NCBI GenBank assembly: GCA_016869595.1
Contig: VGDT01000001.1
Span: 248,001-312,000 of the forward strand
Reading direction: 5' to 3'
DNA: 64,000 bases
Origin: Alphaproteobacteria bacterium
GTDB lineage: Bacteria; Pseudomonadota; Alphaproteobacteria; Rhizobiales; Beijerinckiaceae
This document shows positions 25,375 to 37,074 of this stretch, in pieces. How positions within the stretch are numbered: the first letter of the stretch is position 1; the number at the start of each line of letters is the position of its first letter. Position numbers and translations under genes: made by a program. The notes under the pieces are model-generated. The model was not told the origin of the DNA. It saw only the letters and a list, made by a program, of their open reading frames with translations, and made no database searches.

Positions 25375-26286
25375 ATGTTTGGATCTGGGTTTCGCACTCT
25401 GTCTGCGTCTGCGCGCCGCGCCCCCGTTTTCGGAGCGGCGGCGCTGATCGTTACCGGCGTCGTGTCCGCCAAAGCTCAGCTTGTGCTTCCCGGAGCCGTC
25501 GCGCCTACCCCCGAGGGGACGGTCGCCAGCCCCACAAAGAAAAGAGGCGTCGGCAGTGAGATGGGCGCGGCCGCAGGGCCCGCCATCATGCCCAAGGCTC
25601 CGACGGAAGACGCGATCGTCGCGAAGATTCTCAAACAGGATGGCCAGGGAAGCGCCATAGAATTCTCTCGCGCAGGCGCCGACCTGCAGGTCGCGAAACT
25701 CGCGCTCGTTGGCGATGATTTACGACGCTCCGGAGAGTCCTGCCGAGTCGAAGTCGCCGGGATGCCATTGAAGCTCACGGCGCGCGAGAGCGATACGGGA
25801 CTGCGCCGCTATCAGGTCGCGTTTCCCGCCTGTCCTTTCACGTTCAGCGTGCTTGACGGCGCGATCCTCGTCACCAATGAGGGGAAGGCCTGTGAACTGA
25901 AGGAAGCGGGCTGCCGCGCCGATCCCGAAGGGCTTTGGGGGATGGGCGCTGACGAAATCGATCCCAAGAAGGGCGAAGAGATGCTGGGCGCCCGCGCGCG
26001 CGTCGAAACGACCGTCCGCAATAATTTTCGCGCGCTCTACGATCGCAACAAGAAGGAAAAGGCGATACGAAACTTCCTCGTCAAGGAGCAGGCGGGATTC
26101 TCCTCTTGGCGCGAGGAAGTGTGCCGCTCCTATGCACGCGAGCCGGATTTCGGCTATTGCGCCTTGCGATTGACGGAAGCGCGCGCCATCGCGCTCGGCG
26201 CGCAGCTCGCCTCGGGCGTCAAGCTGCCGCAGGCTGTCGTCGAGGAAGTCGCTGCTGAGAACGCCAAGAAGGACGAGAAGAAGTAG
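25375..26286 (+). CDS. Periplasmic protein with C-terminal LprI-like segment, function unknown
   Basis: 303 residues. A signal-like N-terminus (AALIVTGVVSAKAQ) is followed by a Pro/Gly-rich linker, a beta-rich middle (about 85-190) with two Cys pairs (CRVEVAG, FPACPF, CELKEAGC), and a C-terminal helical region with SSWREEVCRSYAREPDFGYC...LTEARAIAL, which resembles the Cys-bearing LprI/DUF1311 motif. I do not recognise the middle domain. It starts 57 bases after infC and ends 10 bases before the convergent permease gene. Confidence 0.55.
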   Translation: MFGSGFRTLSASARRAPVFGAAALIVTGVVSAKAQLVLPGAVAPTPEGTVASPTKKRGVGSEMGAAAGPAIMPKAPTEDAIVAKILKQDGQGSAIEFSRAGADLQVAKLALVGDDLRRSGESCRVEVAGMPLKLTARESDTGLRRYQVAFPACPFTFSVLDGAILVTNEGKACELKEAGCRADPEGLWGMGADEIDPKKGEEMLGARARVETTVRNNFRALYDRNKKEKAIRNFLVKEQAGFSSWREEVCRSYAREPDFGYCALRLTEARAIALGAQLASGVKLPQAVVEEVAAENAKKDEKK

Positions 26287-26296
26287 CTAAAGCGGC

Positions 26297-27127
26297 CTAG
26301 CCGCCCCTGCGCATCAGCATGCCGCGCGCGGGATCATAGGCGAGGATCGCGGCGACAAGGAACGCGCTCGTATAGGCGAAGACAATCGCGAGCGACGTCC
26401 ACGCGACTTTCTCATAAAAGGCGAAGCGGATCAGCTCCACGGCGTGGGTGAACGGATTGACTTCGCAAACGTAATAAAGCCAAGGGCTCGACTCCTTCAC
26501 GCGCCACAGCGGATAGAGCGCGGAAGAGGCGAAGAACATCGGAAAGATCACGAAGTTCATTACGCCCGCGAAATTTTCGAGCTGTTTGATCAGCGACGAT
26601 AGCAGCATGCCGAGAGCGCCGAGCATCAGGCCGCTGAGCGCGAGCGCCGGCAGCACCGTCAGATAGCCCCATTTCGTCGGTGGCTCGATCTCCCAGAAAT
26701 AGGCGATGAGTAGGAAGGCGTAGACTTGCAGAATCGAGACGGCGACGCCGGCCAGAAGTTTGGAGCCGAGCAGAAACCAGCGCGGAAAGGGCGAAACGAG
26801 CAGCATGCGCATATTGCCCATTTCACGATCGTAGACCATCGAAAGCGACGACTGCATGCCGTTGAAGAGCTGGATCATCGCCATCAGCCCCGGCGCGATA
26901 TAGACCTCATAGAGCACGTAAGTCTCGTAAGGTGGGATGATCGAAACGCCGAGCACCTGCCGAAAGCCCGCCGCGAAGATGAAGAGCCAAACGAGCGGAC
27001 GCACCAGCGCCGAGATGAAGCGTTCGCGTTGATGCAGAAAGCGCAGGCCCTCGCGCCAGACCACGCCTGAAAGGCAAATGAGATATTGGCGAAAGGTGAA
27101 GCCCGCGGGCGCAGCGATCTCGCTCAT
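26297..27127 (-). CDS. lutF: ABC-2 type permease of a PQQ/lanthanide-associated transporter (LutF/PedC-like)
   Basis: 276 residues with six predicted membrane helices. YDREMGNMRMLLVSPFPRWFLLGSKLLAG is the ABC-2 coupling region, and LYPLWRVKESSPWLYYVCEVNPFTHAVELIR is the family-specific end. This permease type is found with PQQ-dependent alcohol dehydrogenase systems (PedC of Pseudomonas) and in the lanthanide utilisation cluster of Methylobacterium (LutF). The start overlaps the ATPase stop by 4 bases (ATGA). The identification rests on the family plus the neighbouring lanM and binding protein. Confidence 0.8.
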   Translation of the reverse strand: MSEIAAPAGFTFRQYLICLSGVVWREGLRFLHQRERFISALVRPLVWLFIFAAGFRQVLGVSIIPPYETYVLYEVYIAPGLMAMIQLFNGMQSSLSMVYDREMGNMRMLLVSPFPRWFLLGSKLLAGVAVSILQVYAFLLIAYFWEIEPPTKWGYLTVLPALALSGLMLGALGMLLSSLIKQLENFAGVMNFVIFPMFFASSALYPLWRVKESSPWLYYVCEVNPFTHAVELIRFAFYEKVAWTSLAIVFAYTSAFLVAAILAYDPARGMLMRRGG

Positions 27128-27870
27128 GCCGAAAGTTTCTCCTGAGCGACGCCGGTGACGCGCGTGAAGGCCTCGCCAATGTTCGCGGCCCCTTGCGCGA
27201 CGACGATCGCTTGCGCGCGGTCCGTCGCGAGCACTCTGCCCTGATGCAGAATGACCACCTGATCGTCGTCGGCGATCTCATCGATGAGATGCGTCGCCCA
27301 CAAAACGCCGAGCCTCTTTTCCTGCACCAGTTCGCGAACAAGCGCGAGAAGATCGGCGCGCGCCTTGATGTCGAGTCCGACCGTCGGCTCGTCGAGAAGC
27401 AGCAGCCGTGGTTCGTGTAGAAGCGCGCGGGCGATTTCGACACGGCGCATCTGTCCCCCAGACAGGGCGCGCGCCTTATCCTTCGCGCGCTCCGCGAGTC
27501 CGGCGCGCGCCAGCGCCGCCTGACCGAGGCGGCGCGCCTCGATCGGTCCGACGCCATGCAGAGCGGCGTGGTAGAGAAGATTCTGCATGACGCTCAATTC
27601 GAGATCGAGCGTGCGCGCCTGAAAGACGACGCCAAGCCGGCGCAGCGCCGCCCCAGGCTCGCGCATGATGTTATGACCGAAGATCTCGATCTCGCCGTGG
27701 CGCGCAGCGTAGAGCCGCGTGACGAGCGAAAACAGCGTGCTCTTGCCGGCGCCGTTGAGACCGAGAAGCATGGTGAAACTGCCGGGCGGAACGGAAAAGC
27801 TGACGTCGTCGAGCGCCTTGCGCGCGCCGTACGAGTGGCTGACGTTTCTGATCGCGAGCGCAGGGGTCAT
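27124..27870 (-). CDS. lutE: ABC transporter ATP-binding protein (LutE/PedB-like)
   Basis: 248 residues. Walker A (GLNGAGKST), Q-loop (VFQARTLDLELSVMQNL), signature LSGGQMRRVEIARALLHEP, Walker B (LLLLDEPTVGLD) and H-loop (WATHLIDE) are all present. Both ends overlap neighbours by 4 bases, so binding-protein partners, ATPase and permease form one transcription unit. In Methylobacterium the corresponding LutE ATPase is needed for lanthanide uptake into the cytoplasm; the transport role here is inferred from that. Confidence 0.82.
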   Translation of the reverse strand: MTPALAIRNVSHSYGARKALDDVSFSVPPGSFTMLLGLNGAGKSTLFSLVTRLYAARHGEIEIFGHNIMREPGAALRRLGVVFQARTLDLELSVMQNLLYHAALHGVGPIEARRLGQAALARAGLAERAKDKARALSGGQMRRVEIARALLHEPRLLLLDEPTVGLDIKARADLLALVRELVQEKRLGVLWATHLIDEIADDDQVVILHQGRVLATDRAQAIVVAQGAANIGEAFTRVTGVAQEKLSA

Positions 27871-28826
27871 TGCGGGGCCACGACGACGCCCCAGGGAAAG
27901 GCGCCAACCGGAATCGACTTCAGCACCTTCAATGACGCGACGTCGATTACAGACACGTCATTCGAAACGCCATTGGCGGTGAGCAGATACTTCTCGTCCG
28001 GCGTGAAGGCGAGGTGCCAGACGCGCTGGCCCACAAGGAAATATTTCTCGATCTTTTTCGTTTCCGCGTCGATCACCGCGACGCGATTGGCTGGTCCAAG
28101 CGCCACGAAGGCGCGTTTTCCGTCGCGCGTGAAAGAAATGCCGATCGGTTGGATCGCTTCTTTCGACATCGCCGGAATGTCGAAGGAAATCTTCTGCTTC
28201 AATTCGCGTTTTACCGGGTCGATGACAGCGACCGTGCCCCCGACTTCAGAAGAAACCCAAAGCTCCGAACCATCCTGCTTGAATTCGGCGAAACGCGGCC
28301 GGCCGTCGACGAGAATATTGGCGACAATCTCTTTCGACTGCGTATCGATGAGATGCGCCATGTTGGTCGTCTCAGAGGTGTTGACGAGCAGCTTGCCGTC
28401 GGGACTGACCGCCATGCCTTCGGGTTCGACGCCGACCGGAATGTCGCCGATCATCTCCTTCTTCTTCACGTCGATGAGGGTGACGAGATTGTCGTTTTCA
28501 TTCGAAACATAGATGATACTGCCGTCCGGACTGAGCGCCAGAAGCTCTGGGTCGGGGCCCGACGGCAGCTTGCCCGTAATTTTCAGCGTCTTGGTGTCGA
28601 GCGCCTGGATGGCGTCGTCGTCGCCTGCGCAGATGTAAAGTTCGGACCCGTCCTTGTTGAGCGCGATGCCGCGCGGCCGCCGGCCGACTTTCACGGTCGC
28701 GATCGCTTCAAGCTTATCGGTGTCGATGACGGTGACGGAATTGCCCTTTTCGTTGCTGACGTAAGCCTTGTAGGCGTGGGCGGGCGTGAATGAGAGTATC
28801 GCGCAAAGGAAGGCGGATATAGTCAT
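27867..28826 (-). CDS. Periplasmic YVTN beta-propeller protein of the PQQ/lanthanide locus
   Basis: 319 residues from the ATG at 28826; the longer open frame to 29312 runs into the next gene and the repeat, and a signal peptide (MTISAFLCAILSFTPAHA) begins exactly here. At least six blades repeat the pattern 'AYVSNEKGNSVTVIDT', 'LYICAGDDDAIQALDT', 'IYVSNENDNLVTLID'. This is the beta-propeller family associated with PQQ-dependent catabolism. In the Methylobacterium lut cluster a protein of this kind lies beside the transporter (I believe LutD). Its stop overlaps the ATPase start. Confidence 0.8.
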   Translation of the reverse strand: MTISAFLCAILSFTPAHAYKAYVSNEKGNSVTVIDTDKLEAIATVKVGRRPRGIALNKDGSELYICAGDDDAIQALDTKTLKITGKLPSGPDPELLALSPDGSIIYVSNENDNLVTLIDVKKKEMIGDIPVGVEPEGMAVSPDGKLLVNTSETTNMAHLIDTQSKEIVANILVDGRPRFAEFKQDGSELWVSSEVGGTVAVIDPVKRELKQKISFDIPAMSKEAIQPIGISFTRDGKRAFVALGPANRVAVIDAETKKIEKYFLVGQRVWHLAFTPDEKYLLTANGVSNDVSVIDVASLKVLKSIPVGAFPWGVVVAPQ

Positions 28827-28844
28827 GCTAATCGCGTAACGCCC

Positions 28845-28925
28845 GTCATGCCCGCGCTTGTCGCGGGCACCCACGCCGTTGGGACTCGCGCGTTGATGGC
28901 CGGGACAAGCCCGGCCATGACGCGT
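28845..28925. repeat. REP-like palindromic repeat (copy 2, two hairpins)
   Basis: TGCCCGCG-CTTGT-CGCGGGCA (28849-28869) is followed by ATGGCCGGG-ACAAG-CCCGGCCAT. The first hairpin with its CCACGCC flank is the reverse complement of the layout at 18291-18330. It fills the gap between the binding-protein and propeller genes and may modulate expression within the operon. Confidence 0.65.
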
Positions 28926-28954
28926 CAAGCGAGCGACAATCGGTAGGGCGTTCT

Positions 28955-30133
28955 TCATTTCAATCTGCATTTCGTCTCCGGCTGGTCGACTCCGAGCGTG
29001 TCGAGTTCGCTCACCTGATGGAGGAAGCCTTCCTGCGGCGAAACGGAAACGACAATCCGCCCGTCGGAAAGGAGTATCGGCTGGCGCAATTGCTGGTTCC
29101 ACGGCCGCAGCGTGAGCCGCACGCCTTTGAATGCGGCGATGGAGAAATCCTTGCCGAGCATATAGAGGCGCAGCTTCTCGGCGTCGTTCGATGCAGTGCG
29201 CGTCGCCGCTTCGCCGATCATCCGCATGGCGAGCCACGCCGCATTGTCGCGCGCATTCATCAAACGTCTGAAGGTCTGGATGAAGCGGTTCTGCAACTGA
29301 AGCGCGCCCCATTGTTCATGCGCCGGGTCCCAGTTCGTCGGCATCAAACCAGCCGAACCGGCGACCGGGCGCGGGTCCCAGGTGCGATAGGGCAGATAGC
29401 CGCCAAAGACTTCGCTCTCATCGGCGGCGATGAGCGCGTCATAGGCCGGCGCATTCTGCGTCAGTAGCGGCATCTGCCGTTGGGTCTGCACGGAGCCGGA
29501 GTCGCTGCGCCGCCCGCCGCCAGTGTCTTCGTACACGCGTTCTTCAACAACCTTGGCGCCGAATTTCCTGGCGCTGTTACGGAAGGCTTGCGCCAGGAGC
29601 TCGTCTTTCGGATGCGATCCCTTGATCATGAGCCAGCGTCGCCACTGCTTCCAGACAAGATATTGCGCGAGACCGTCAGCGAGCATCGACCGCGTCGGCG
29701 CGACATGAATGACGTTGGCGCGGCAGTCTTCTTCGCGAAGCCTGTCGTCCGTGGCGGAGACATTGAAAAGCAGGGCGCCTTTCGACTTGGCGCGCTCAGA
29801 GGCGGCGAGCAGACGTTCGGGCGAGAGGTCGGCGATGATGAAAAGCGCGCCCTTTTCGATCAGCGAGTCGAGCGCCGCGACGACGTTATCGCCCTCATCG
29901 AGCTTTGCGTCGATCGTCTCAAACGTCTGGTTGGTGAATTTGCCTGTGGTGTTGTTGTCGGCCGCGCCCATCAGCGCGCCGGCGAGCGTATCGTCAGCGG
30001 CGGGAATATCGAGAATGGAGAGGGTCTCGCGCGAATGCGCTTCGCGCAAAACGCCGACCTTGACGTTCACCGTTTCGGCCGCGACCGGTGCGGCTACGAG
30101 CAGCAAACAGAAGGCGGCGACCAAGCTTTTCAT
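28955..30133 (-). CDS. lutA: ABC transporter periplasmic binding protein of the PQQ/lanthanide system (LutA-like)
   Basis: 392 residues. Signal peptide MKSLVAAFCLLLVAAPVAAE. The body is a type-1 (branched-chain amino-acid-like) periplasmic fold: VKVGVLREAHSRETLS, GALMGAADNNTTGKF, ALFIIADLSPERLLA and LFNVSATDDRLREEDC. The ending QEGFLHQVSELDTLGVDQPETKCRLK is distinctive for the PQQ-dependent ADH-associated subfamily that includes LutA. In Methylobacterium lutA is required for growth on lanthanides. It lies 66 bases downstream of lanM. Confidence 0.8.
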   Translation of the reverse strand: MKSLVAAFCLLLVAAPVAAETVNVKVGVLREAHSRETLSILDIPAADDTLAGALMGAADNNTTGKFTNQTFETIDAKLDEGDNVVAALDSLIEKGALFIIADLSPERLLAASERAKSKGALLFNVSATDDRLREEDCRANVIHVAPTRSMLADGLAQYLVWKQWRRWLMIKGSHPKDELLAQAFRNSARKFGAKVVEERVYEDTGGGRRSDSGSVQTQRQMPLLTQNAPAYDALIAADESEVFGGYLPYRTWDPRPVAGSAGLMPTNWDPAHEQWGALQLQNRFIQTFRRLMNARDNAAWLAMRMIGEAATRTASNDAEKLRLYMLGKDFSIAAFKGVRLTLRPWNQQLRQPILLSDGRIVVSVSPQEGFLHQVSELDTLGVDQPETKCRLK

Positions 30134-30199
30134 GTCGCCTAAATGGCCGCTTTGGCGCGCGGGATCAAGTTCTTAGAACTCCCGCGCGCCTTGGTCGAG

Positions 30200-30601
30200 T
30201 CACCTTGTCACGCGCAGCAGCGCCTTGCCCTTCTTGGACGCGAGCTCCTTGGCGTCAAGCGTCCCGTCATTGTCAGGGTCCGCGTCCTTGAACATCCCGG
30301 AGACCATGGCGAGAAACTCGTCCTTGGATAGCGTCCCGTCATTGTCAGGATCGGCCTCTTTGAATTCTTTCTTCGAGACGCGTCCCTTCATTTCTTTAAC
30401 GTCAACCGTCCCATCCGAGTCCTTCTCGAGACGCGTAAAAAGATCGGTGGCTGATTTATTGATCTCATTGAGATCGACCGTGCCGTCATTGTCGGTGTCG
30501 AGCGCCGCGACGGGACCAGTCGCCTTCGCGAGCGCGCCCGTCGCCGGCAGCGCCATGGCGCCGGCAAGCGCTAGCGCGCCGAGCAGCAATGCTTTCTTCA
30601 T
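30200..30601 (-). CDS. lanM: Lanmodulin, lanthanide-binding EF-hand protein
   Basis: 133 residues from the ATG at 30601 (AAGGAG 7 bases upstream). Signal peptide to about residue 25. Four EF-hand loops lie at 35-46 (DTDNDGTVDLNE), 59-70 (EKDSDGTVDVKE), 84-95 (DPDNDGTLSKDE) and 108-119 (DPDNDGTLDAKE). The gaps are 12, 13 and 12 residues, the compact spacing that sets lanmodulin apart from calmodulin; MKGRVSKK and DAKELAS also match the Methylobacterium protein. Proline at loop position 2, linked to lanthanide selectivity, is kept in hands 3 and 4 only. Hand 2 begins with Glu and hand 3 has Ser at position 9. Acts in the periplasm. Confidence 0.9.
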   Translation of the reverse strand: MKKALLLGALALAGAMALPATGALAKATGPVAALDTDNDGTVDLNEINKSATDLFTRLEKDSDGTVDVKEMKGRVSKKEFKEADPDNDGTLSKDEFLAMVSGMFKDADPDNDGTLDAKELASKKGKALLRVTR

Positions 30602-30711
30602 TTGCGACTCCTTTTGAATCAAGCCATCGCAAACAATATAGCGCGGGCGCCGCCAACCCGGCTAGCGCCGTTAACGCCGCGGGAAGAAGACGGCGCAGGC
30701 ATGTAGGCGAA

Positions 30712-31464
30712 CTACTGCGTCGTAGGCGAAACGCCGGAAGGCTTTCGCCGCAGGGGCAGGCTGGCGATGAGCACGGCGAGAATTCCGGTAACGAATATGC
30801 CATCGAACGTCCCTGCGCCGCCAAATGATGCGACGGGCGTCCCGATCTCTTGTATGCGGCCGAGATTCAGCAAATCCGCGCCGATCAGCGTGCCGAGACT
30901 GCCGCTGACATAGGCGACCGGCGCGGCGAAATCGCGTGACAACAATATCGCCAGAACCGCCGACAAGATGGGCGGCGCCAGAATGGGCACGCTGATGCCG
31001 ACGCCGGGAACGATCCGTGAGAACAAGTGGACGACAACAGCGACGATCGTCGTCGCTAAGGTCGCGACGATCCAAATGCGGTTGCGGGCAAGCAGATAAA
31101 TCGAAAGCAGAATCGGAATGATGGCGCCGCCGACGTTCACGGCCAGTATCATGCCCGGCCAATCGACGACCATCGGGACGACATAGCGCCTTCCGAAGAA
31201 ATCGATCATTTCCTGAGGAACGACGCGTTCGTTGGCGAAGTGCGCGACGGGAATGTTTATGTAGCTTCCTAAAAGCGAAGCGAGCAGCACGAGTGTCGCA
31301 GATTTGGAGCTTAGACCGATGCGGCTATAGGCATAGTGCAGCGCGCCGAGCTGTATGAGCACGAAAAGCGCTACGATTGCGCCGAAGAACACCGCGTAAA
31401 TCAACGGCGGCAGGGGAAGATAATGAAGCTGGTGTGAATACACGCGCCGCCTCCATGAATGCAT
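30712..31464 (-). CDS. DUF1614 integral membrane protein
   Basis: About 250 residues with seven or so helices. VNVGGAIIPILLSIYLL, APPILSAVLAILL, YVSGSLGTLIGADLLNL and FGGAGTFDGIFVTGI are the conserved blocks of DUF1614. The function of this family is unknown; the Gly-rich blocks hint at a channel or transporter. A start at 31485 is also possible; neither has a clear ribosome site. It is upstream of lanM in the same direction with a 110-base gap, so it could be the first gene of the lanthanide operon, but that is unproven. Confidence 0.75.
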   Translation of the reverse strand: MHSWRRRVYSHQLHYLPLPPLIYAVFFGAIVALFVLIQLGALHYAYSRIGLSSKSATLVLLASLLGSYINIPVAHFANERVVPQEMIDFFGRRYVVPMVVDWPGMILAVNVGGAIIPILLSIYLLARNRIWIVATLATTIVAVVVHLFSRIVPGVGISVPILAPPILSAVLAILLSRDFAAPVAYVSGSLGTLIGADLLNLGRIQEIGTPVASFGGAGTFDGIFVTGILAVLIASLPLRRKPSGVSPTTQ

Positions 31465-31778
31465 AGCCAAGCGCTGCAGCCGCATATAGGGGACTCGCGA
31501 TCGAGTTGCAGGCGCGTCGGCGGCGAGCGGTCAGCGGGAAGAAATGAGAAGAGACGCCGATGGCTTGACCCTTTGGAGCAGGAGATTGCCGCTTTAGCGG
31601 CGGTCTAAAGGCGTTCGCTATTCAGATGAAATATTCTTCACATATCTTCAAATTCATCGCAGGCGCTCACAACTCCGTCATGCCCAAGCTTTTGAGAGCA
31701 CGTCTGCTCAGCGAGCAGGGCGCTGCGTCTTTGGCGTGGCCTCTTAAATACATCCCGCTAAGTTTATGGAGGACGTTG
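31465..31778. other. Intergenic stretch between divergent genes, nothing assigned
   Basis: Holds an open frame continuous with the downstream SpoIIAA-like gene but without family residues, and no hairpin or repeat that I can see. Promoters for both flanking genes must lie here. Confidence 0.5.
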
Positions 31779-32141
31779 GTGATCGAGCAACTGTTGAACT
31801 TTCCCGATAATGTCGTGGCGATTCGCTGTAAGGGGCGCGTGACGAAGGCGGATTATGATTCCGTCCTCGTTCCCGCCGTTGAGAGCGCGCTCAAGAAACA
31901 CGACAAGGTCAGGATCTATTACGAGATCACGCCCGACTTCTCGGGAATCGATCCCGGCGCGATGTTTGAGGATTTCAAGGTCGGAATGGGACATCTCACG
32001 CGTTGGGAGCGAATCGCGCTCATCACCGACGTTGAGTGGATCAAGCACACCATGCAGCTATTCAGCTTCATTACGCCCGGCGAGATGAAGTTGTTTCCCA
32101 CCTGGCAAGCCAATGACGCGCGCGCCTGGATTGCAGCTTAG
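31779..32141 (+). CDS. SpoIIAA-like (STAS-fold) protein
   Basis: 120 residues from the GTG at 31779, chosen because GGAGG ends 6 bases upstream and the length fits the family; an adjacent in-frame TTG (31776) is the alternative. Residues GRVTKADYDSVLVPAVESALKKHDKVRIYYEITPDFSGIDPGAMFEDFKVG and FPTWQANDARAWI are typical of PF11964 SpoIIAA-like proteins, which are often annotated as 'STAS/SpoIIAA-like' with unknown ligand. The stop codon shares bases with the stop of the convergent kinase gene. Confidence 0.75.
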   Translation: MIEQLLNFPDNVVAIRCKGRVTKADYDSVLVPAVESALKKHDKVRIYYEITPDFSGIDPGAMFEDFKVGMGHLTRWERIALITDVEWIKHTMQLFSFITPGEMKLFPTWQANDARAWIAA

Positions 32142-33583
32142 CGACCCACTGCGACGCCGTTGCGCAGAGGCAGCGACGCGGTGAGTCGCGCGCCGCCTTG
32201 CGCATCATTGCCGAGGGTGAGCGCGCCGCCGAGCGCGCCCACTCGTTCGCTCATACCGCGCAAACCGAGACCGCCGCTCGATGACAAAGGACGCGTCGCG
32301 TCGAGACCGGACCCATTATCCCCCACGACGATATGCAACGCGCCATTGGCGCGCGTGACGGTCACTTCGACCAGATCGGCGCCAGAATGCCGAAGCGCAT
32401 TGGCGAGTCCCTCCTGCACGATGCGATAGGCGGTGAGCGCGGTTTCCTCGTCTAGAGCGCGCTGCGAAAAAGTGGAATCCGGTTTTTCGCGCAAAGCGCG
32501 CTCTAAGTTTTGGGAATCGATCACGTCATCTGCATTTGGGCGATTCCGCCCAAATGCAGCGTGATCTAGGTCGCCGGAAGCGCCATCGAGCGAAAGCACG
32601 ATGGCGACATTGGGATTGGCCTCGCGCCAACCTTGCGCGAGCGCCTGCAAGGCGTCAGCAAGTCCCATCTCCTCGAGGGCGGCTGGACGCAGCCGCCCGA
32701 GGATGCGCCTGTTGACCTGCTGCAGAGCGGCGATCTGCGCGTCGATGCGGGCGCAGTCTTCGGCGAGACGCGAAGGGTCGGCGCCCGGAGCGGTCGCGTG
32801 ACGCGCCAATGCGCCGACGCCCGCGCGCACGGTGAACAGGAAAGGGCCGATCTCGTCATGCAGATCGCGCGCGATGTCTTTGCGCTCTTCGTCCTGCACA
32901 TGGATCATGCGTCGCACGAGCCGGCGATTTTCGTCATCGAGCCGTTGCAGCGTTGCGGCGAGAGCGTTGATGCGTTCCGCGATGATGACGAATTCTGGGG
33001 AACCGTCGGCGGGAACGCGCATCGAATGTTCGCCGCGCTCCAGACATTGCAGACCTTCCGCGAGAGTCGCGATGGGGCTCAGCGTCCGTGACACGGCGAG
33101 CGAAACAAGGCCGAAGGCGGCGACCGCGATTCCGGCGCCGCCGATCGCGAGCCACACGATCTCCTGCCAAATCTCGGCGATCTCATCCGCAGGATTGGGC
33201 GCGATCAGGATCGCGCCGCGGCCGGTTTCGATCCGCGTCGCGGCGGCGTTCGGCAACACAAGCCGAGTGAACCACTGCGGCGCGCGGTCGACGCCCTCCT
33301 GCGAGTGAGTTTCCTCGACCGCGAGAGTGACGCGGACATGGCGCAGCCGCCTCGCGTCCGCTAAAAGTCTCGCGATCTCCGCTTGCGGGTCCGTGGCGGA
33401 GTCCAGTCGGGGCAGCGTCGCTTCGACGAGATCGCGCGCCAGGCGCGTTGCGCCGTCAGCCTCGGCGCGAACCCGTGCGCCGGCGTGCAAGACGAGCAGG
33501 CCGACGCCGAGCGCCAATCCCAGCGCGAGCACCGCGCCGAGCAGCAGCGATAGGCGAAGACGCAGGGAAAGCCTTCGAAGCAT
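32138..33583 (-). CDS. Sensor histidine kinase (NarL-type, MoxY-like) with an in-frame repeat insertion
   Basis: 481 residues from the ATG at 33583. TM1 (about 10-33), a periplasmic domain resembling the LapD/MoxY N-terminus, TM2 (about 143-165), HAMP, then HisKA_3 with DEERKDIARDLHDEIGP (His242) and an ATPase domain with QEGLANALRHSGA (N box), GDNGSGLD (G1) and GGLGLRGM (G2). Residues about 339-378 are encoded by the repeat at 32451-32570; without them SLDGASG would run directly into DEETALTAYRIVQEG, as in related kinases. The kinase is divergent from its likely partner regulator. The extra 40 residues sit just before the N box and may or may not be tolerated. Confidence 0.85.
   Translation of the reverse strand: MLRRLSLRLRLSLLLGAVLALGLALGVGLLVLHAGARVRAEADGATRLARDLVEATLPRLDSATDPQAEIARLLADARRLRHVRVTLAVEETHSQEGVDRAPQWFTRLVLPNAAATRIETGRGAILIAPNPADEIAEIWQEIVWLAIGGAGIAVAAFGLVSLAVSRTLSPIATLAEGLQCLERGEHSMRVPADGSPEFVIIAERINALAATLQRLDDENRRLVRRMIHVQDEERKDIARDLHDEIGPFLFTVRAGVGALARHATAPGADPSRLAEDCARIDAQIAALQQVNRRILGRLRPAALEEMGLADALQALAQGWREANPNVAIVLSLDGASGDLDHAAFGRNRPNADDVIDSQNLERALREKPDSTFSQRALDEETALTAYRIVQEGLANALRHSGADLVEVTVTRANGALHIVVGDNGSGLDATRPLSSSGGLGLRGMSERVGALGGALTLGNDAQGGARLTASLPLRNGVAVGR
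32451..32570 (-). repeat. Two-hairpin dispersed repeat inside the kinase gene (copy 1)
   Basis: About 120 bases nearly identical to the reverse complement of 40449-40567 (about 7 differences by eye). One hairpin is TGCATTTGGGCG / CGCCCAAATGCA within GATCACG...CGTGATC. The other is AGAGCGCGCT / AGCGCGCTCT with GCGAAAAA / TTTTTCGC. Both copies are bounded by CTAG. It is a multiple of three in length and adds 40 codons without a stop. Confidence 0.88.
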
Positions 33584-33685
33584 GGGCCAATTCTCTAGAG
33601 AAGTCGCCGACTTTACGAAAGGCCTCAATGCCGTCAATGTCTTGCCGCCGCTTCGGCAACTCTCGATCGTGGAGCCACGTCAAAT

Positions 33686-34306
33686 ATGCGCGTTCTTATC
33701 GTTGACGACCATCCGATCATCGTCTCCGGCTGTGCGGCGATGCTCGCCGGCGAGGGCGATATCGACGTCGTCGACGCGCGCGACGCGGAGACGGGTCTCG
33801 CCGTCTTCATGGCGCAGAAGCCCGACGTGACGGTCGTCGACATCGGACTGCCGGGCGTTTCCGGCTTCGAGTTGGCGCGGCGAATTCTGGAGCGTGATCC
33901 GGGCGCCCGTATCGTCGTCTTCAGCATGAACGATGATCCGATCTTCGCGGCGCGCGCGATTCAGATGGGCGCCAAGGGTTATGTGACGAAGAACGATGAT
34001 CCTTATCTCTTGCTGACGGCGGTGCGCGAAGTCGCGTCAGGCGGCGTATTTTTAATGCCCAAAATCGCCAACCGGCTCGCTTTCGAGAAAAGCGGCGCGG
34101 CCGCAAGTCCGCTCTCTGCGTTGACTGCGCGGGAGTTGGAGATTTTGCGGATGCTTGGACGCGGTCTCGGAATGGCGGAGATCGCCGACGCGACGCAGGT
34201 CTCTTACAAGACGATCGCGAATAGCTGCTCGATCATGAAACGAAAGCTCGGCGCCCGCACGCCTATGGAACTCATGCGCATCGCGCTGGAAAACAGACTG
34301 ACGTGA
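33686..34306 (+). CDS. LuxR/NarL-family response regulator
   Basis: 206 residues. Receiver domain with VDDHP, Asp52 in VVDIGLPG as phosphorylation site and GYVTKND. The C-terminal helix-turn-helix has LTARELEILRMLGRGLGMAEIADATQVSYKTIANSCSIMKRKLGA. It is divergent from the kinase with 102 bases between starts, so the two form a two-component pair. LuxR-type pairs of this kind control PQQ alcohol dehydrogenases (MoxYX; PedS2/PedR2, which responds to lanthanides). Targets here are inferred from the neighbours, not shown. Confidence 0.88.
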   Translation: MRVLIVDDHPIIVSGCAAMLAGEGDIDVVDARDAETGLAVFMAQKPDVTVVDIGLPGVSGFELARRILERDPGARIVVFSMNDDPIFAARAIQMGAKGYVTKNDDPYLLLTAVREVASGGVFLMPKIANRLAFEKSGAAASPLSALTARELEILRMLGRGLGMAEIADATQVSYKTIANSCSIMKRKLGARTPMELMRIALENRLT

Positions 34307-34316
34307 GGGACGCTAA

Positions 34317-34340
34317 CCTTCTCCCGCTTGCGGGAGAAGG
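34317..34340. terminator. Hairpin between convergent regulator and peroxidase genes
   Basis: CCTTCTCCCG (34317-34326), loop CTTG, CGGGAGAAGG (34331-34340), followed by a weaker hairpin in GTCGTTAC...GTGACGAC. This is a common Hyphomicrobiales intergenic repeat that can act as a bidirectional terminator. No T-run. Confidence 0.55.
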
Positions 34341-34371
34341 TGTCGTTACGAAGTGACGACGGATGAGGGCT

Positions 34372-35409
34372 CTACTTTCCTTGCGCGTCTGGATAAGGCT
34401 CCGGCGGCGAGTAATTCGCAGGAACCGGACCCGTCAGCGCGCCGAGAAAAGCGACGATGTCGGCTGCGTCCTTATCCGACAAATCATCTCCAAGCTGCGT
34501 CTTGCCCATGATTTTCACGGCTTTGTTCAGATCGTTGACCGATCCATCGTGAAAATAGGGCGCCGTCCGCGCCACATTGCGCAGGCTTGCGACTTTGAAG
34601 ACATAAAGGTCGGCGTCATTCTTGGTGACGTCTGCGCGACCCTTGTCAGGCGTCGTAACGCTGGTTTCTTTCCAGTAGTCGCTTACAACGCCGAATTTCT
34701 GAAAGGAATTGCCGCCGACGCCCGCGCCATTGTGGCAAGAGACGCAGCCAAGATCGATGAACTTGCGCAAGCCCGCCTGCTCTTGACTGGTAAGCGCTGA
34801 CGCGTCGCCCGCGAGGAAGGCGTCGAATTTCGACGGCGTCAGCAGCGTGCGCTCGAAGGCGCCGACCGCAACGCCCCAATTTTTCGAATTGATCGGGTCC
34901 TTGTCATCCGGGAAGGCTTTGGCGAAGGCGCCCGCGTAGGCCGGAATCGCTTTGAGCTTGCCCATCGCCGTGGTCTGATCGGGATTGCCGAAACTCGCCG
35001 GCCCGAGCAGCGATTTTTCCGCTTGGTCTTCGAGCGACTCGCGGTCGCCGCGCCAATGCTGCTTGAAATTCAGCGCGGCGTTGAAGATCGATGGCGCGTT
35101 TCGCGGATTCTCCTTGCCGAACACGCCAATCGCCTTCGGCAGTCCGTCGCTCGCCTGTTTCTCCGGTAGATGGCAATGGGCGCAACTGACGTTGCCGTCC
35201 ATCGACACGCGATTTTCAAAGAAGAGCCGGCGACCAAGTTCGACGCGTGCGGCGGCCATGGGATCGCCGACGGCGGAAGGAGCCACGATTGGCTGAAAAT
35301 TCCGCTTCGCGTCCTCAAGAAGGGTTTTCGCGTTCGGACTTTCAGCTCCGGCCGTCGCAACGACGAACAGCGCGCAGAGGAAGGCGATGAAGAAAGTAGA
35401 CGAGCGCAC
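34372..35409 (-). CDS. Di-heme cytochrome-c peroxidase / MauG-family protein
   Basis: 345 residues from a GTG at 35409, preceded by GGAGG at a 5-base distance; an in-frame ATG at 35439 lacks that. Signal peptide FFIAFLCALFVVATAGAE. Two heme c sites: CAHCH (76-80) and CVSCH (222-226). APYFHDGSVNDLNKAV and KIMGKTQLGDDLSDKDAADIVAFLGAL are family blocks; the Met in the latter suits bacterial peroxidases better than MauG, which uses Tyr there. It lies 138 bases downstream of pqqA in the same direction, an arrangement that may link it to PQQ-dependent oxidation in the periplasm. Confidence 0.85.
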   Translation of the reverse strand: MRSSTFFIAFLCALFVVATAGAESPNAKTLLEDAKRNFQPIVAPSAVGDPMAAARVELGRRLFFENRVSMDGNVSCAHCHLPEKQASDGLPKAIGVFGKENPRNAPSIFNAALNFKQHWRGDRESLEDQAEKSLLGPASFGNPDQTTAMGKLKAIPAYAGAFAKAFPDDKDPINSKNWGVAVGAFERTLLTPSKFDAFLAGDASALTSQEQAGLRKFIDLGCVSCHNGAGVGGNSFQKFGVVSDYWKETSVTTPDKGRADVTKNDADLYVFKVASLRNVARTAPYFHDGSVNDLNKAVKIMGKTQLGDDLSDKDAADIVAFLGALTGPVPANYSPPEPYPDAQGK

Positions 35410-35521
35410 TTCGGCCTCCTGTTCCTGATCGCCGATCAAAAAAATCGAGCCGGCAAATCGAAAAGCGCAATCCGCTTAACGCAGCGCTCTTCTTGCCGGC
35501 CCGATTTGAAAATTCGATGGC

Positions 35522-35537
35522 GCCTTCGAAGGAAGGC
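35522..35537 (-). terminator. Stem-loop just after pqqA
   Basis: GCCTTC (35522-35527), GAAG, GAAGGC (35532-35537), 10 bases past the pqqA stop. A stem-loop between pqqA and the next gene is the usual way the short pqqA message is made more abundant than downstream genes. The stem is only 6 bases and no T-run follows, so attenuation is a suggestion. Confidence 0.4.
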
Positions 35538-35547
35538 CGCGCCGAAA

Positions 35548-35625
35548 TTAGATCTCGGCGGACTCGTAGCTGGTGATTTCCATGCCGACGCAAACTTCGA
35601 CAATCACGGGAGTCGTCCAGGCCAT
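35548..35625 (-). CDS. pqqA: PQQ precursor peptide PqqA
   Basis: A 25-residue peptide: MAWTTPVIVEVCVG followed by MEITSYESAEI. Glu16 and Tyr20 have the E-x-x-x-Y spacing of the residues that PqqE crosslinks to build pyrroloquinoline quinone. AGACGGAGGAAAAC supplies a strong GGAGG ribosome site 5 bases before the ATG. pqqB, C, D and E are not in this window; the next gene in the same direction is a di-heme peroxidase. So this is either a separate pqqA copy or the organism's sole copy detached from the biosynthesis genes. Confidence 0.92.
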   Translation of the reverse strand: MAWTTPVIVEVCVGMEITSYESAEI

Positions 35626-35973
35626 TGTTTTCCTCCGTCTTAGGACTCTTTCCGGCTCTGCCTGCTTATGTGGGCGTTGCGCCTGCAGGTTTAAGCTCGG
35701 CGCAGCATTTAGCATGATCGCAGCGGCTTCGCAAATGCGATGCGGCGCACAATGCATCTGTTCCACGACGGCCGTCAAAGTCGCCGCGGCAGGTGCTGAT
35801 GCAAATGACGCAGCCGAACGTCTCGACAGTCGCCGTGACGGCTGCTAGGCATAAGCGAAACACGGGAGGAGCCGCCCCGGCTTGGCGAGTAGGCGCTAAA
35901 AAACAAATGGATAGCGCTCAATTCGCCGATACGCGACAAGCTTGGCCGGGGCAGGTCGCAAATCGGGGTAGGA
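35626..35973. other. Divergent promoter region between pqqA and fhcB
   Basis: 348 bases without a supported gene. It must carry the promoters of the leftward pqqA unit and the rightward fhc operon. I see no convincing palindrome or hexamer pair by eye; small open frames here lack ribosome sites. Confidence 0.5.
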
Positions 35974-37074
35974 ATGGAGACAGCGACGCTCAACGGCAAG
36001 GCGATTGCGCTTGACGACGCCTATCGACACGCCGCCAAAATTCTCAGCGGCGCAGCCTTTCCGCTTGTCGCCGGCCTTGGCGCCGACGTCGCCGGAGCGC
36101 GCGCCGCCATCCTTTTGGCCGAGCAACTGAGGGGCGCCTTCGACCATCTCGCGTCGCGCGAAACGCTCGCCGACATCGACGTCAAGCGCTCTTTCGGCAT
36201 GTTCACGACGACGGCGAATGAGGCGCGCTTGCGCGGCGATTGCGTCGTGCTGATCGGCCCCGGGCTGACGCGCGCCTGGCCGGGAATGTTGGAACGGCTT
36301 GCGCTTTCGCAGCCGCCGCGCCGCGGCGCGCAGGCGGAGCAACCGCGCAAGGTGATTTGGCTTGGGCCGGAAGGAGACGAGGCGAGCGCCGTCCCTGGCG
36401 CAAAGGTCATCCCCGCCTCCGCGCATGAGCTTTCGGGCGTGCTCGCGGCGTGGCGCGCGCGATTCGGCGGACGGCCAGTGGCGCTCGACGCCGAAAAGGT
36501 CGGCCTCATCGATGGCCTCATGGAGACGCTAAAGAATGCGCGCTTTGGCGTGTTCGTCTGGTCGGCGTCCACGCTCGACCCGCTGGCGATCGAGATGCTG
36601 CAGGGTCTGGTTATCGAGCTCAACGCCACGACGCGCTTTACCGGCGTTCATATCGGCGGCCGCAGCGGCGCTTCGGGCGTCACTCAAACAGCCGGTTGGA
36701 TGACGGGTTTTCCGCCGCGCACGGGCTTTGGCCGCGGTTATCCGGAGCATGATCCGTGGCGTTTCGAAGCCTCGCGGCTCGTCGACAGCGGCGAGGCCGA
36801 TGCGGCGCTGTGGATCTCCGCCTTTGACGGCGAGAAACCCGCCTGGTCCCGCGCCGATATTCCGCTCATTACGCTCGCGCCGTCGCACGCCGCGCCGTCT
36901 CGCGGGCTGTTCATCGAGGTGGGTCAGCCCGGCGTCACCCATGACGCGGTGCTGATGACTCAGGAAACCGGCGGCATGACGCTGCGCAAAGCAAGCGCGC
37001 CGACCAACGCGCCGAGCGTCGCGCAGGCGATCGGCGCCATCATGGCGGAAGTTTCGGAGGGCGCATGGCGCTGA
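35974..37074 (+). CDS. fhcB: Formyltransferase/hydrolase complex subunit B
   Basis: 366 residues. Homologous in plan to subunit B of formylmethanofuran dehydrogenase (LDDAYRHAAKILSGAAFPLVAGLGADVAGARAAI, HIGGRSGASGVTQTAGWMTGFPPR). In bacteria the Fhc complex transfers formyl from tetrahydromethanopterin to a methanofuran analogue and hydrolyses it to formate; FhcB is not thought to carry a redox centre there. It is the first gene of fhcBADC. Its stop lies inside the next gene (10-base overlap). GGGTAGGA precedes the ATG. Confidence 0.9.
   Translation: METATLNGKAIALDDAYRHAAKILSGAAFPLVAGLGADVAGARAAILLAEQLRGAFDHLASRETLADIDVKRSFGMFTTTANEARLRGDCVVLIGPGLTRAWPGMLERLALSQPPRRGAQAEQPRKVIWLGPEGDEASAVPGAKVIPASAHELSGVLAAWRARFGGRPVALDAEKVGLIDGLMETLKNARFGVFVWSASTLDPLAIEMLQGLVIELNATTRFTGVHIGGRSGASGVTQTAGWMTGFPPRTGFGRGYPEHDPWRFEASRLVDSGEADAALWISAFDGEKPAWSRADIPLITLAPSHAAPSRGLFIEVGQPGVTHDAVLMTQETGGMTLRKASAPTNAPSVAQAIGAIMAEVSEGAWR

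Follow-up and report, generated by a model that had tools for sequence, protein, structure and literature searches.

An initial annotation described the product of the gene at positions 30200-30601 of the window (the whole stretch of 64,000 nucleotides that was analysed) as a lanmodulin (LanM) with degenerate first hands. The question raised by this locus is whether EF hands 1 and 2 are decaying, whether they mark a lanmodulin with shifted metal preferences, or whether they belong to the ordinary range of the family.

The window encodes a lanmodulin

The gene and the elements at its start are as follows.

30200..30601, minus strand: lanM, lanmodulin of 133 aa (NF053806, 159.4 bits; 8fns, E 2.5e-31; predicted model, TM 0.94 to 8fns)
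30608..30613, minus strand: Shine-Dalgarno-like AAGGAG, 6 nt before the lanM ATG
30527..30601, minus strand: signal-peptide-like stretch, residues 1-25 (MKK..ALA), from the translation read by eye

The reading frame opens with an ATG at 30601 and its stop codon ends at 30200. The signal-like stretch, judged by eye, suggests that the product would be exported to the periplasm. In a profile search the NCBIfam lanmodulin equivalog NF053806 matched the protein at 159.4 bits against a cut-off of 135 (E 4.6e-47). This was the one match in the source genome (3.28 Mb in 152 contigs, completeness 98.9%), and among 14 control genomes one had a match and none had a match above the cut-off. Alignment with characterised proteins gave lanmodulins, and not calmodulin-type EF proteins, as the best matches: the top four solved chains were Mex-LanM (2.5e-31 and 3.4e-31), Hans-LanM (2.1e-16) and a lanthanum-bound protein of Ancylobacter lacus (8.9e-16). 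The best non-lanmodulin chain was radial spoke protein 7 (8e-11); a calmodulin-calcineurin fusion came next (2.5e-6), and plain calmodulins reached E 8.9e-6 at best.

An AlphaFold2 model, built on 57 aligned sequences and possibly leaning on known lanmodulin structures, has the three-helix-bundle fold of lanmodulin (mean pLDDT 93.3, pTM 0.85). Foldseek placed this model at TM 0.94 and rmsd 0.7 Å to 8fns and at TM 0.88 to Hans-LanM, and the four matches at E ≤0.001 were all lanmodulins. The definition of lanmodulin given in PMC10232371 comprises four EF hands, a 12-13 residue spacing and at least one Pro at loop position 2 (Pro2); all of these hallmarks are present, with four loops, 12-13-12 spacing and Pro2 in hands 3 and 4. 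The profile score, the ranking of solved chains and the predicted fold thus bear out the identification as a lanmodulin. A search of the plasmid collection returned 15 records, none over 80% of the lanM product, the best being that of M. extorquens CM4 at 60%.

lanM lies upstream of a lut gene set

Four genes on the same strand follow lanM.

30134..30199, minus strand: lanM-lutA intergenic region, with a GC-rich hairpin and a conserved CTTGAT-N18-CATTTAG adjoining lutA (pattern in 45/47 loci)
28955..30133, minus strand: lutA homologue, periplasmic binding protein (TIGR03863; 468 bits, cut-off 413.6; 43% to the gene at the lutA position in genome G315)
27867..28826, minus strand: lutB homologue, YVTN beta-propeller (TIGR03866; 502 bits, cut-off 287.3; 62% to the gene at the lutB position in G315)
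27124..27870, minus strand: lutE homologue, ABC ATPase (TIGR03864; 332.5 bits, cut-off 302.25; 59% to the G315 counterpart)
26297..27127, minus strand: lutF homologue, ABC permease (TIGR03861; 398.6 bits, cut-off 241.35; 68% to the G315 counterpart)

The lanM-lutA and lutA-lutB gaps measure 66 and 128 nt, and the lutB-lutE and lutE-lutF pairs each overlap by 4 nt. The lut names were assigned by family and gene order, the AM1 cluster being known from its published description. In G315, which encodes a LanM with four Pro2, the order is lutA, lutB, two small exported proteins, lutE, lutF, an exported protein, a TonB receptor and lanM, in agreement with the AM1 lut cluster, whose order and functions are described in PMC7391723. 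Because the four lut families occur in the G315/AM1 order, the window is read as lanM-lutA-lutB-lutE-lutF. According to the same source, lutE or lutF mutants of AM1 did not grow on methanol with La until suppressors arose.

The arrangement is widespread: of 55 Methylocystis-type loci, 47 have lanM upstream of a lutA homologue and in the same direction. The gap between them is at most 70 nt in 36 loci, 116 nt in one (the broken copy L147), 220-281 nt in six and 635 nt, with an extra ORF between, in four. The eight loci where lanM is not beside lutA (L136, L137, L141-L146) encode LanMs just 40-60% identical to that of the window. A literature search that covered mainly papers outside subscription journals gave no published lanM-lutA linkage in Methylocystis among its listed results; according to PMC9291206 the lanM of Methylocella silvestris is located away from the lut genes.

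The intergenic element, with a spacing of 17-20 and some letters free, occurs in 45 of the 47 lutA-adjacent loci and in 26 of 28 distinct intergenic sequences, the misses being L147 and L048, and it stays beside lutA even where the gap is 220-635 nt. We take CTTGAT-N18-CATTTAG to resemble an alphaproteobacterial promoter, and it may instead be a ribosome-binding or RNA element. Its 20-base core occurs at five places in its own genome with three or fewer mismatches, one of them without mismatch. No E. coli-type sigma-70 promoter was found in window 29900-30900, and no Rfam family reached its gathering threshold in window 26000-36000. The hairpin is not a general feature: 23 of the 47 loci fit a strict arm pattern, itself crude enough to miss some visible stems, and we therefore claim no conserved terminator.

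Two further observations concern the surroundings of the cluster. A histidine kinase and a divergent response regulator lie upstream of lanM (window 32138-34306), and the latter, possibly a regulator of the cluster, is found in 15 of the 17 named Methylocystis-type loci (L032-L048). The lutA-lutB gap contains a palindromic, REP-like sequence, GTCATGGCCGGGCTTGTCCCGGCCAT (window 28896-28921), with a similar copy at window 18192 that carries 3 mismatches, where none would be expected by chance.

The four EF loops and their variation among relatives

The loops were assigned by loop alignment and are given with omega values, which are rough and are taken up below.

30464..30499, minus strand: EF1 loop DTDNDGTVDLNE, Thr2 (omega 0.059)
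30392..30427, minus strand: EF2 loop EKDSDGTVDVKE, Glu1 and Lys2 (omega 0.171)
30317..30352, minus strand: EF3 loop DPDNDGTLSKDE, Pro2, Ser9 and Asp11 (omega 0.055; 9/11 pairing)
30245..30280, minus strand: EF4 loop DPDNDGTLDAKE, Pro2 (omega 0.077)

What the initial annotation had read directly from these loops stands. The translation gives four loops separated by spacers of 12, 13 and 12 residues, and the loop alignment confirms that Pro2 is confined to hands 3 and 4, that hand 2 opens with Glu rather than Asp, and that hand 3 has Ser at position 9. Every side-chain ligand position in all four loops carries an oxygen-bearing residue: Glu at EF2 position 1 retains a carboxylate, and Ser9 of EF3 is accompanied by Asp11, so that the loop retains five acids. 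The annotation had also set these loops against a Methylobacterium protein with Pro in all four hands, which is correct for the Methylorubrum extorquens AM1 protein (8fns) but not for the genus: the LanM of M. aquaticum 22A is described with T/K in hands 1 and 2 (PMC9260416), and Pro2 is absent from hands 1 and 2 in 41 of 41 Methylobacterium-type LanMs, grouped by name in a seed-biased set.

The nearest named LanM, from Methylocystis sp. B8, is 97% identical, and for nine genes of the neighbourhood the match to B8 is 90-97%. When loop positions 1, 2 and 9 were left out of the tree, the lanM product grouped with Methylocystis, same-genus and unclassified rows in starred groups (98, 97 and 95% SH-aLRT); the trees are quick, unrooted and based on about 90 columns, and 54 of 125 inner branches are open in this one. 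Within the same genus, 33 of 39 genomes encode a LanM above the NF053806 cut-off and 36 of 39 have any match. Neither hand 1 nor hand 2 has Pro2 in any of the 37 unbroken same-genus loci, from which the broken copy L147, counted among the 47 lutA-adjacent loci, was excluded. Thr2 is found in hand 1 of 29, Lys2 in hand 2 of 31 and Glu1 in hand 2 of 27 of these loci; position 9 of hand 3 is Ser in 26, Thr in 6, Asp in 4 and Asn in 1, and the Pro2 pattern across the four hands is --PP in 26, --P- in 8 and ---- in 3.

An order-wide sample yielded a LanM above the cut-off in 29 of 397 genomes. Among the over-cut-off matches listed outside the genus, 34 of 35 were examined (the one left out is G340:C37:46499), with the Pro2 patterns PPPP in 11, -PPP in 10, P-PP in 6, --PP in 6 and --P- in 1; four-Pro LanMs are therefore a minority in this sample. 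Glu1 of hand 2 occurs in 8 of the 34, and hand 3 has Thr9 in 10 and Ser9 in none. Mex-LanM joins five g4 rows whose hand 1 likewise carries Pro2 (93%, not starred) and sits inside a Methylobacterium/g4 group of 52 rows (85%, not starred), of which 46 have no Pro2 in hand 1. Four Pro2 is thus a trait of Mex-LanM and some others and not the family norm.

One of the seed peptides of the named-collection scan was DTDNDGTV, which biases that set, and the loop counts over all LanMs and the 9/11 pairing take in this set. Because the named and unnamed collections overlap, some strains enter twice; numbers of distinct sequences are stated where they were computed. L001 is a duplicate of L002, and L156 was dropped from the 9/11 pairing analysis.

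Several relatives depart further. L145 (G429) and L146 (G432) are same-genus LanM relatives below the NF053806 cut-off that have no Pro2 anywhere and no Glu12 in hand 2. In L147 (G398:C4) a LanM copy beside a lutA homologue is split across two frames. A second LanM-like ORF, an open frame of 162 codons scoring 52-53 bits to a LanM profile, lies between lanM and lutA in L036 (from ~6496), L039, L115 and L121; its hands 1-3 are eroded and hand 4 alone is intact (DRNGNGVLDHDE), making it a truly degenerate LanM relative.

An exchange between positions 9 and 11 of hand 3

Across 131 distinct LanMs, an acid stands at position 11 of EF3 in 64 of the 68 sequences with Ser, Thr or Asn at position 9, and is absent from position 11 in 61 of the 63 with an acid at position 9. 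The exchange thus holds in 125 of 131 (Fisher 9e-30, a value that ignores relatedness and the seed bias of the set), and 121 of 131 EF3 loops have five acids. The Hans-type hand 3, with Glu9 and Asp11, breaks the rule. On the tree, Ser/Thr9 requires 9 changes and an acid at position 11 requires 11; four independent pairs could be drawn on starred branches, of which on average 2.7 agree, 0.0 oppose and 1.3 show no difference, and the tree-aware pairing is not significant because independent pairs are too few. In the other hands position 9 is acidic in 129 or 130 of 131 LanMs, so that no exchange is visible there.

These substitutions bear on the possibility, raised by the initial annotation, that affinity, cooperativity or metal selectivity differ. 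The window's LanM may differ in affinity or selectivity. As a refinement compatible with the ordinary reading, the protein may be a functionally shifted lanmodulin that departs from Mex-LanM in how it discriminates against Ca, in cooperativity or in its preference for light or heavy Ln, an idea we put forward tentatively and as something short of probable. PMC10232371 names loop positions 1, 2 and 9 as important and describes D9 of Mex-LanM as hydrogen-bonding bound solvent, and the exchange in 125 of 131 LanMs points the same way. Pro-to-Ala replacement in Mex-LanM lowers Ln-over-Ca selectivity with Ln affinity kept, according to earlier work cited in PMC12603986, and on this analogy the window's LanM can fairly be predicted to discriminate somewhat less well against Ca. 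Against a shift stand the 22A LanM, which has T2 and K2 in hands 1 and 2 and is nonetheless described as binding 3.65 La and compacting on La (PMC9260416), and the lack of significance of the tree-aware pairing.

A more specific proposal seems to us rather unlikely in its entirety. Hand 3 would have two interchangeable builds, Asp9 with a non-acidic position 11 or Ser/Thr9 with Asp11. The second, together with the Thr2 and Glu1-Lys2 hands of Methylocystis, would place the water-organising carboxylate at position 11 in place of position 9, thereby tuning Ln selectivity in a lanM wired to LutABEF for direct hand-over.

Hands 1 and 2 appear constrained rather than decayed

Selection was assessed by a Nei-Gojobori-style count over 28 distinct gene sequences from 44 Methylocystis-type loci (the main Methylocystis clade); L048, L136, L137 and L141-L147 were omitted by choice as divergent, broken or differently placed, and L130 by script pattern. 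Omega was 0.059 for EF1, 0.171 for EF2, 0.055 for EF3 and 0.077 for EF4, against 0.263 for the remaining mature protein, all values being rough because dS is near saturation. None of the 28 genes varies at position 3 or 12 of any loop or at position 5 of EF1-EF3, D3, D5 and E12 of EF1 and EF2 being unchanged. EF2 is the most variable loop, with Glu or Asp at position 1 and Asp, Glu or Thr at position 9. EF1 and EF2 therefore appear to be under purifying selection in the main Methylocystis clade, EF2 less so than the other loops.

The description of the first hands as degenerate is not borne out, given this purifying selection, the retention of ligand oxygens, the pairing of Ser9 with Asp11 and the published binding of 3.65 La by a LanM with T2/K2 (PMC9260416). 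That hands 1 and 2 are decaying and that metal is bound by hands 3 and 4 alone is accordingly a very improbable explanation. It would draw on EF2 being the least constrained loop (omega 0.171, a rough value), on the absence of Pro2 from hands 1 and 2 and on the two divergent same-genus relatives without Glu12 in hand 2. However, the constraint on EF1 equals that on EF3 and EF4, D3, D5 and E12 are fixed in EF1 and EF2 across the 28 genes, and a carboxylate still occupies EF2 position 1; since four Pro2 is not the family norm, missing Pro2 is no sign of decay. The Thr2, Glu1-Lys2 and Ser9-Asp11 hands appear instead to be an established alternative state of the family.

Ser9 is common in calmodulin-type loops. 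A calmodulin-like calcium-binding EF-hand protein in place of a lanmodulin is a very improbable reading too: position-2 Lys and Thr are common in calmodulin-type loops (PMC12603986) and solved EF-hand chains from other families reach 8e-11, but the 12-13-12 spacing, Pro2 in hands 3 and 4, an NF053806 score above the cut-off, the lanmodulin fold of the predicted model and the lut neighbourhood all speak against it. A calmodulin-type calcium sensor was likewise rejected as a candidate by its expected hand spacing of ~25, by the best matches being lanmodulins and by the lanmodulin fold.

Host and proposed role

The source genome encodes a XoxF that carries the motif WDYDG, a LutH-like receptor (42% match, C16:56395-58575) and a PmoA-family gene; given the last of these, the Methylocystis-type host is probably a methanotroph. 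XoxF is the one PQQ methanol dehydrogenase found in this genome (C51:10829-14084), and its MoxJ-family neighbour is below that family's cut-off. Neither MxaF nor a MoxJ above the cut-off was found in the 152 contigs, possibly on account of one missing contig. MoxJ above the cut-off occurs in 26 of 39 genus genomes, including G415, G423 and G427, each with two dehydrogenases. In L160 (G397:C1, 2777-10845) a LanM gene is flanked by a TonB-type receptor on one side and a methanol dehydrogenase of MxaF type (WDFAG) on the other. Genome G410 (L161; 92% complete, 7 contigs) has no LanM match, and its one PQQ dehydrogenase is a XoxF as judged by the WDYDG motif.

We conclude with high confidence that the window encodes an ordinary lanmodulin, from a bacterium of Methylocystis type that is probably methanotrophic, and that its hands represent an alternative state and not decay. 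The protein would be periplasmic, fold on lanthanides and buffer or shuttle them between the LutH-like receptor, LutABEF and XoxF. The analysis shows family membership, conservation of the loops, the gene neighbourhood, the predicted fold and the presence of XoxF and the other parts of the route; export, metal-driven folding, the metal bound and the route of hand-over are what we infer for this LanM. In the proposed mechanism, the LutH-like outer-membrane receptor would admit lanthanide complexes to the periplasm, where exported LanM would be largely unfolded without metal. As its EF hands take trivalent lanthanides, LanM would fold into the three-helix bundle and buffer or shuttle the metals among the LutH-like receptor, the LutABEF importer and XoxF; LutABEF would import part of the lanthanides of this zone and XoxF would use lanthanides.

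PMC12482762 describes LanM in Methylocystaceae, and in PMC10848612 lanM is one of the genes that respond most in strain RH AL1. According to PMC9260416 deletion of lanM in strain 22A does not stop methanol growth, and according to PMC12482762 LanM is undetected in the proteomes of Methylosinus trichosporium OB3b. The dispensability in 22A, the non-detection in OB3b and G410 without a LanM indicate that the role is not essential everywhere.

The hand-3 9/11 exchange and the lanM-lutA linkage across Methylocystis are mildly new. The linkage of lanM to lutABEF allows a functional connection between lanmodulin and importer to be tested directly in methanotrophs, and the Methylocystis LanMs offer rare-earth binding studies a collection of natural variants at positions 1, 2 and 9.

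Comparison with known lanmodulins

The LanMs of Methylocystis strains (L032, L033, L035, L036, L038-L042, L044-L047) are 66-97% identical to that of the window, share its locus and have, for the most part, identical hands; the outer rows differ, with Asp at EF2 position 1 in L046 and L047 and at EF3 position 9 in L046. Hans-LanM of Hansschlegelia quercus (8dq2) shares the predicted fold (TM 0.88) and Asp11 in hand 3, but is 39% identical over 97 columns and has Asn1 and Glu9 in hands 1-3, and its interface Arg, six residues past hand 3, aligns with Ser in the window's LanM. A Hans-type lanmodulin or dimer network was rejected as a candidate because hands 1-3 do not show the pattern of Asn1 and Glu9 and because Ser stands at the place of interface Arg100.

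Mex-LanM of Methylorubrum extorquens AM1 (8fns, 6mi5) resembles the window's protein in its fold (by the predicted model), four hands, 12-13-12 spacing and 55% identity over 101 aligned columns, and its lanM cluster also holds lut genes (PMC7391723). It differs in that each of its hands has Pro2, hand 2 has Asp1, hand 3 Asp9 and hand 4 Asn1, and by the gene numbers in PMC7391723 the AM1 lanM follows lutH, whereas the window's lanM precedes lutA. According to PMC12603986, Pro2 is found in three of four hands in the LanM of RH AL1, in two in that of 22A and in one in that of Hansschlegelia. The LanM of M. aquaticum 22A, as published for hands 1-2, comes close to the window's protein, with Thr2 in hand 1, Lys2 in hand 2, D or E at position 1 and a signal peptide, although its gene is reported to sit among genes that have no relation to Ln transport (PMC9260416). 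The same source gives a stoichiometry of 3.65 La for this T/K protein and describes its compaction on La. The unusual-looking first hands have thus already been described in a La-binding relative.
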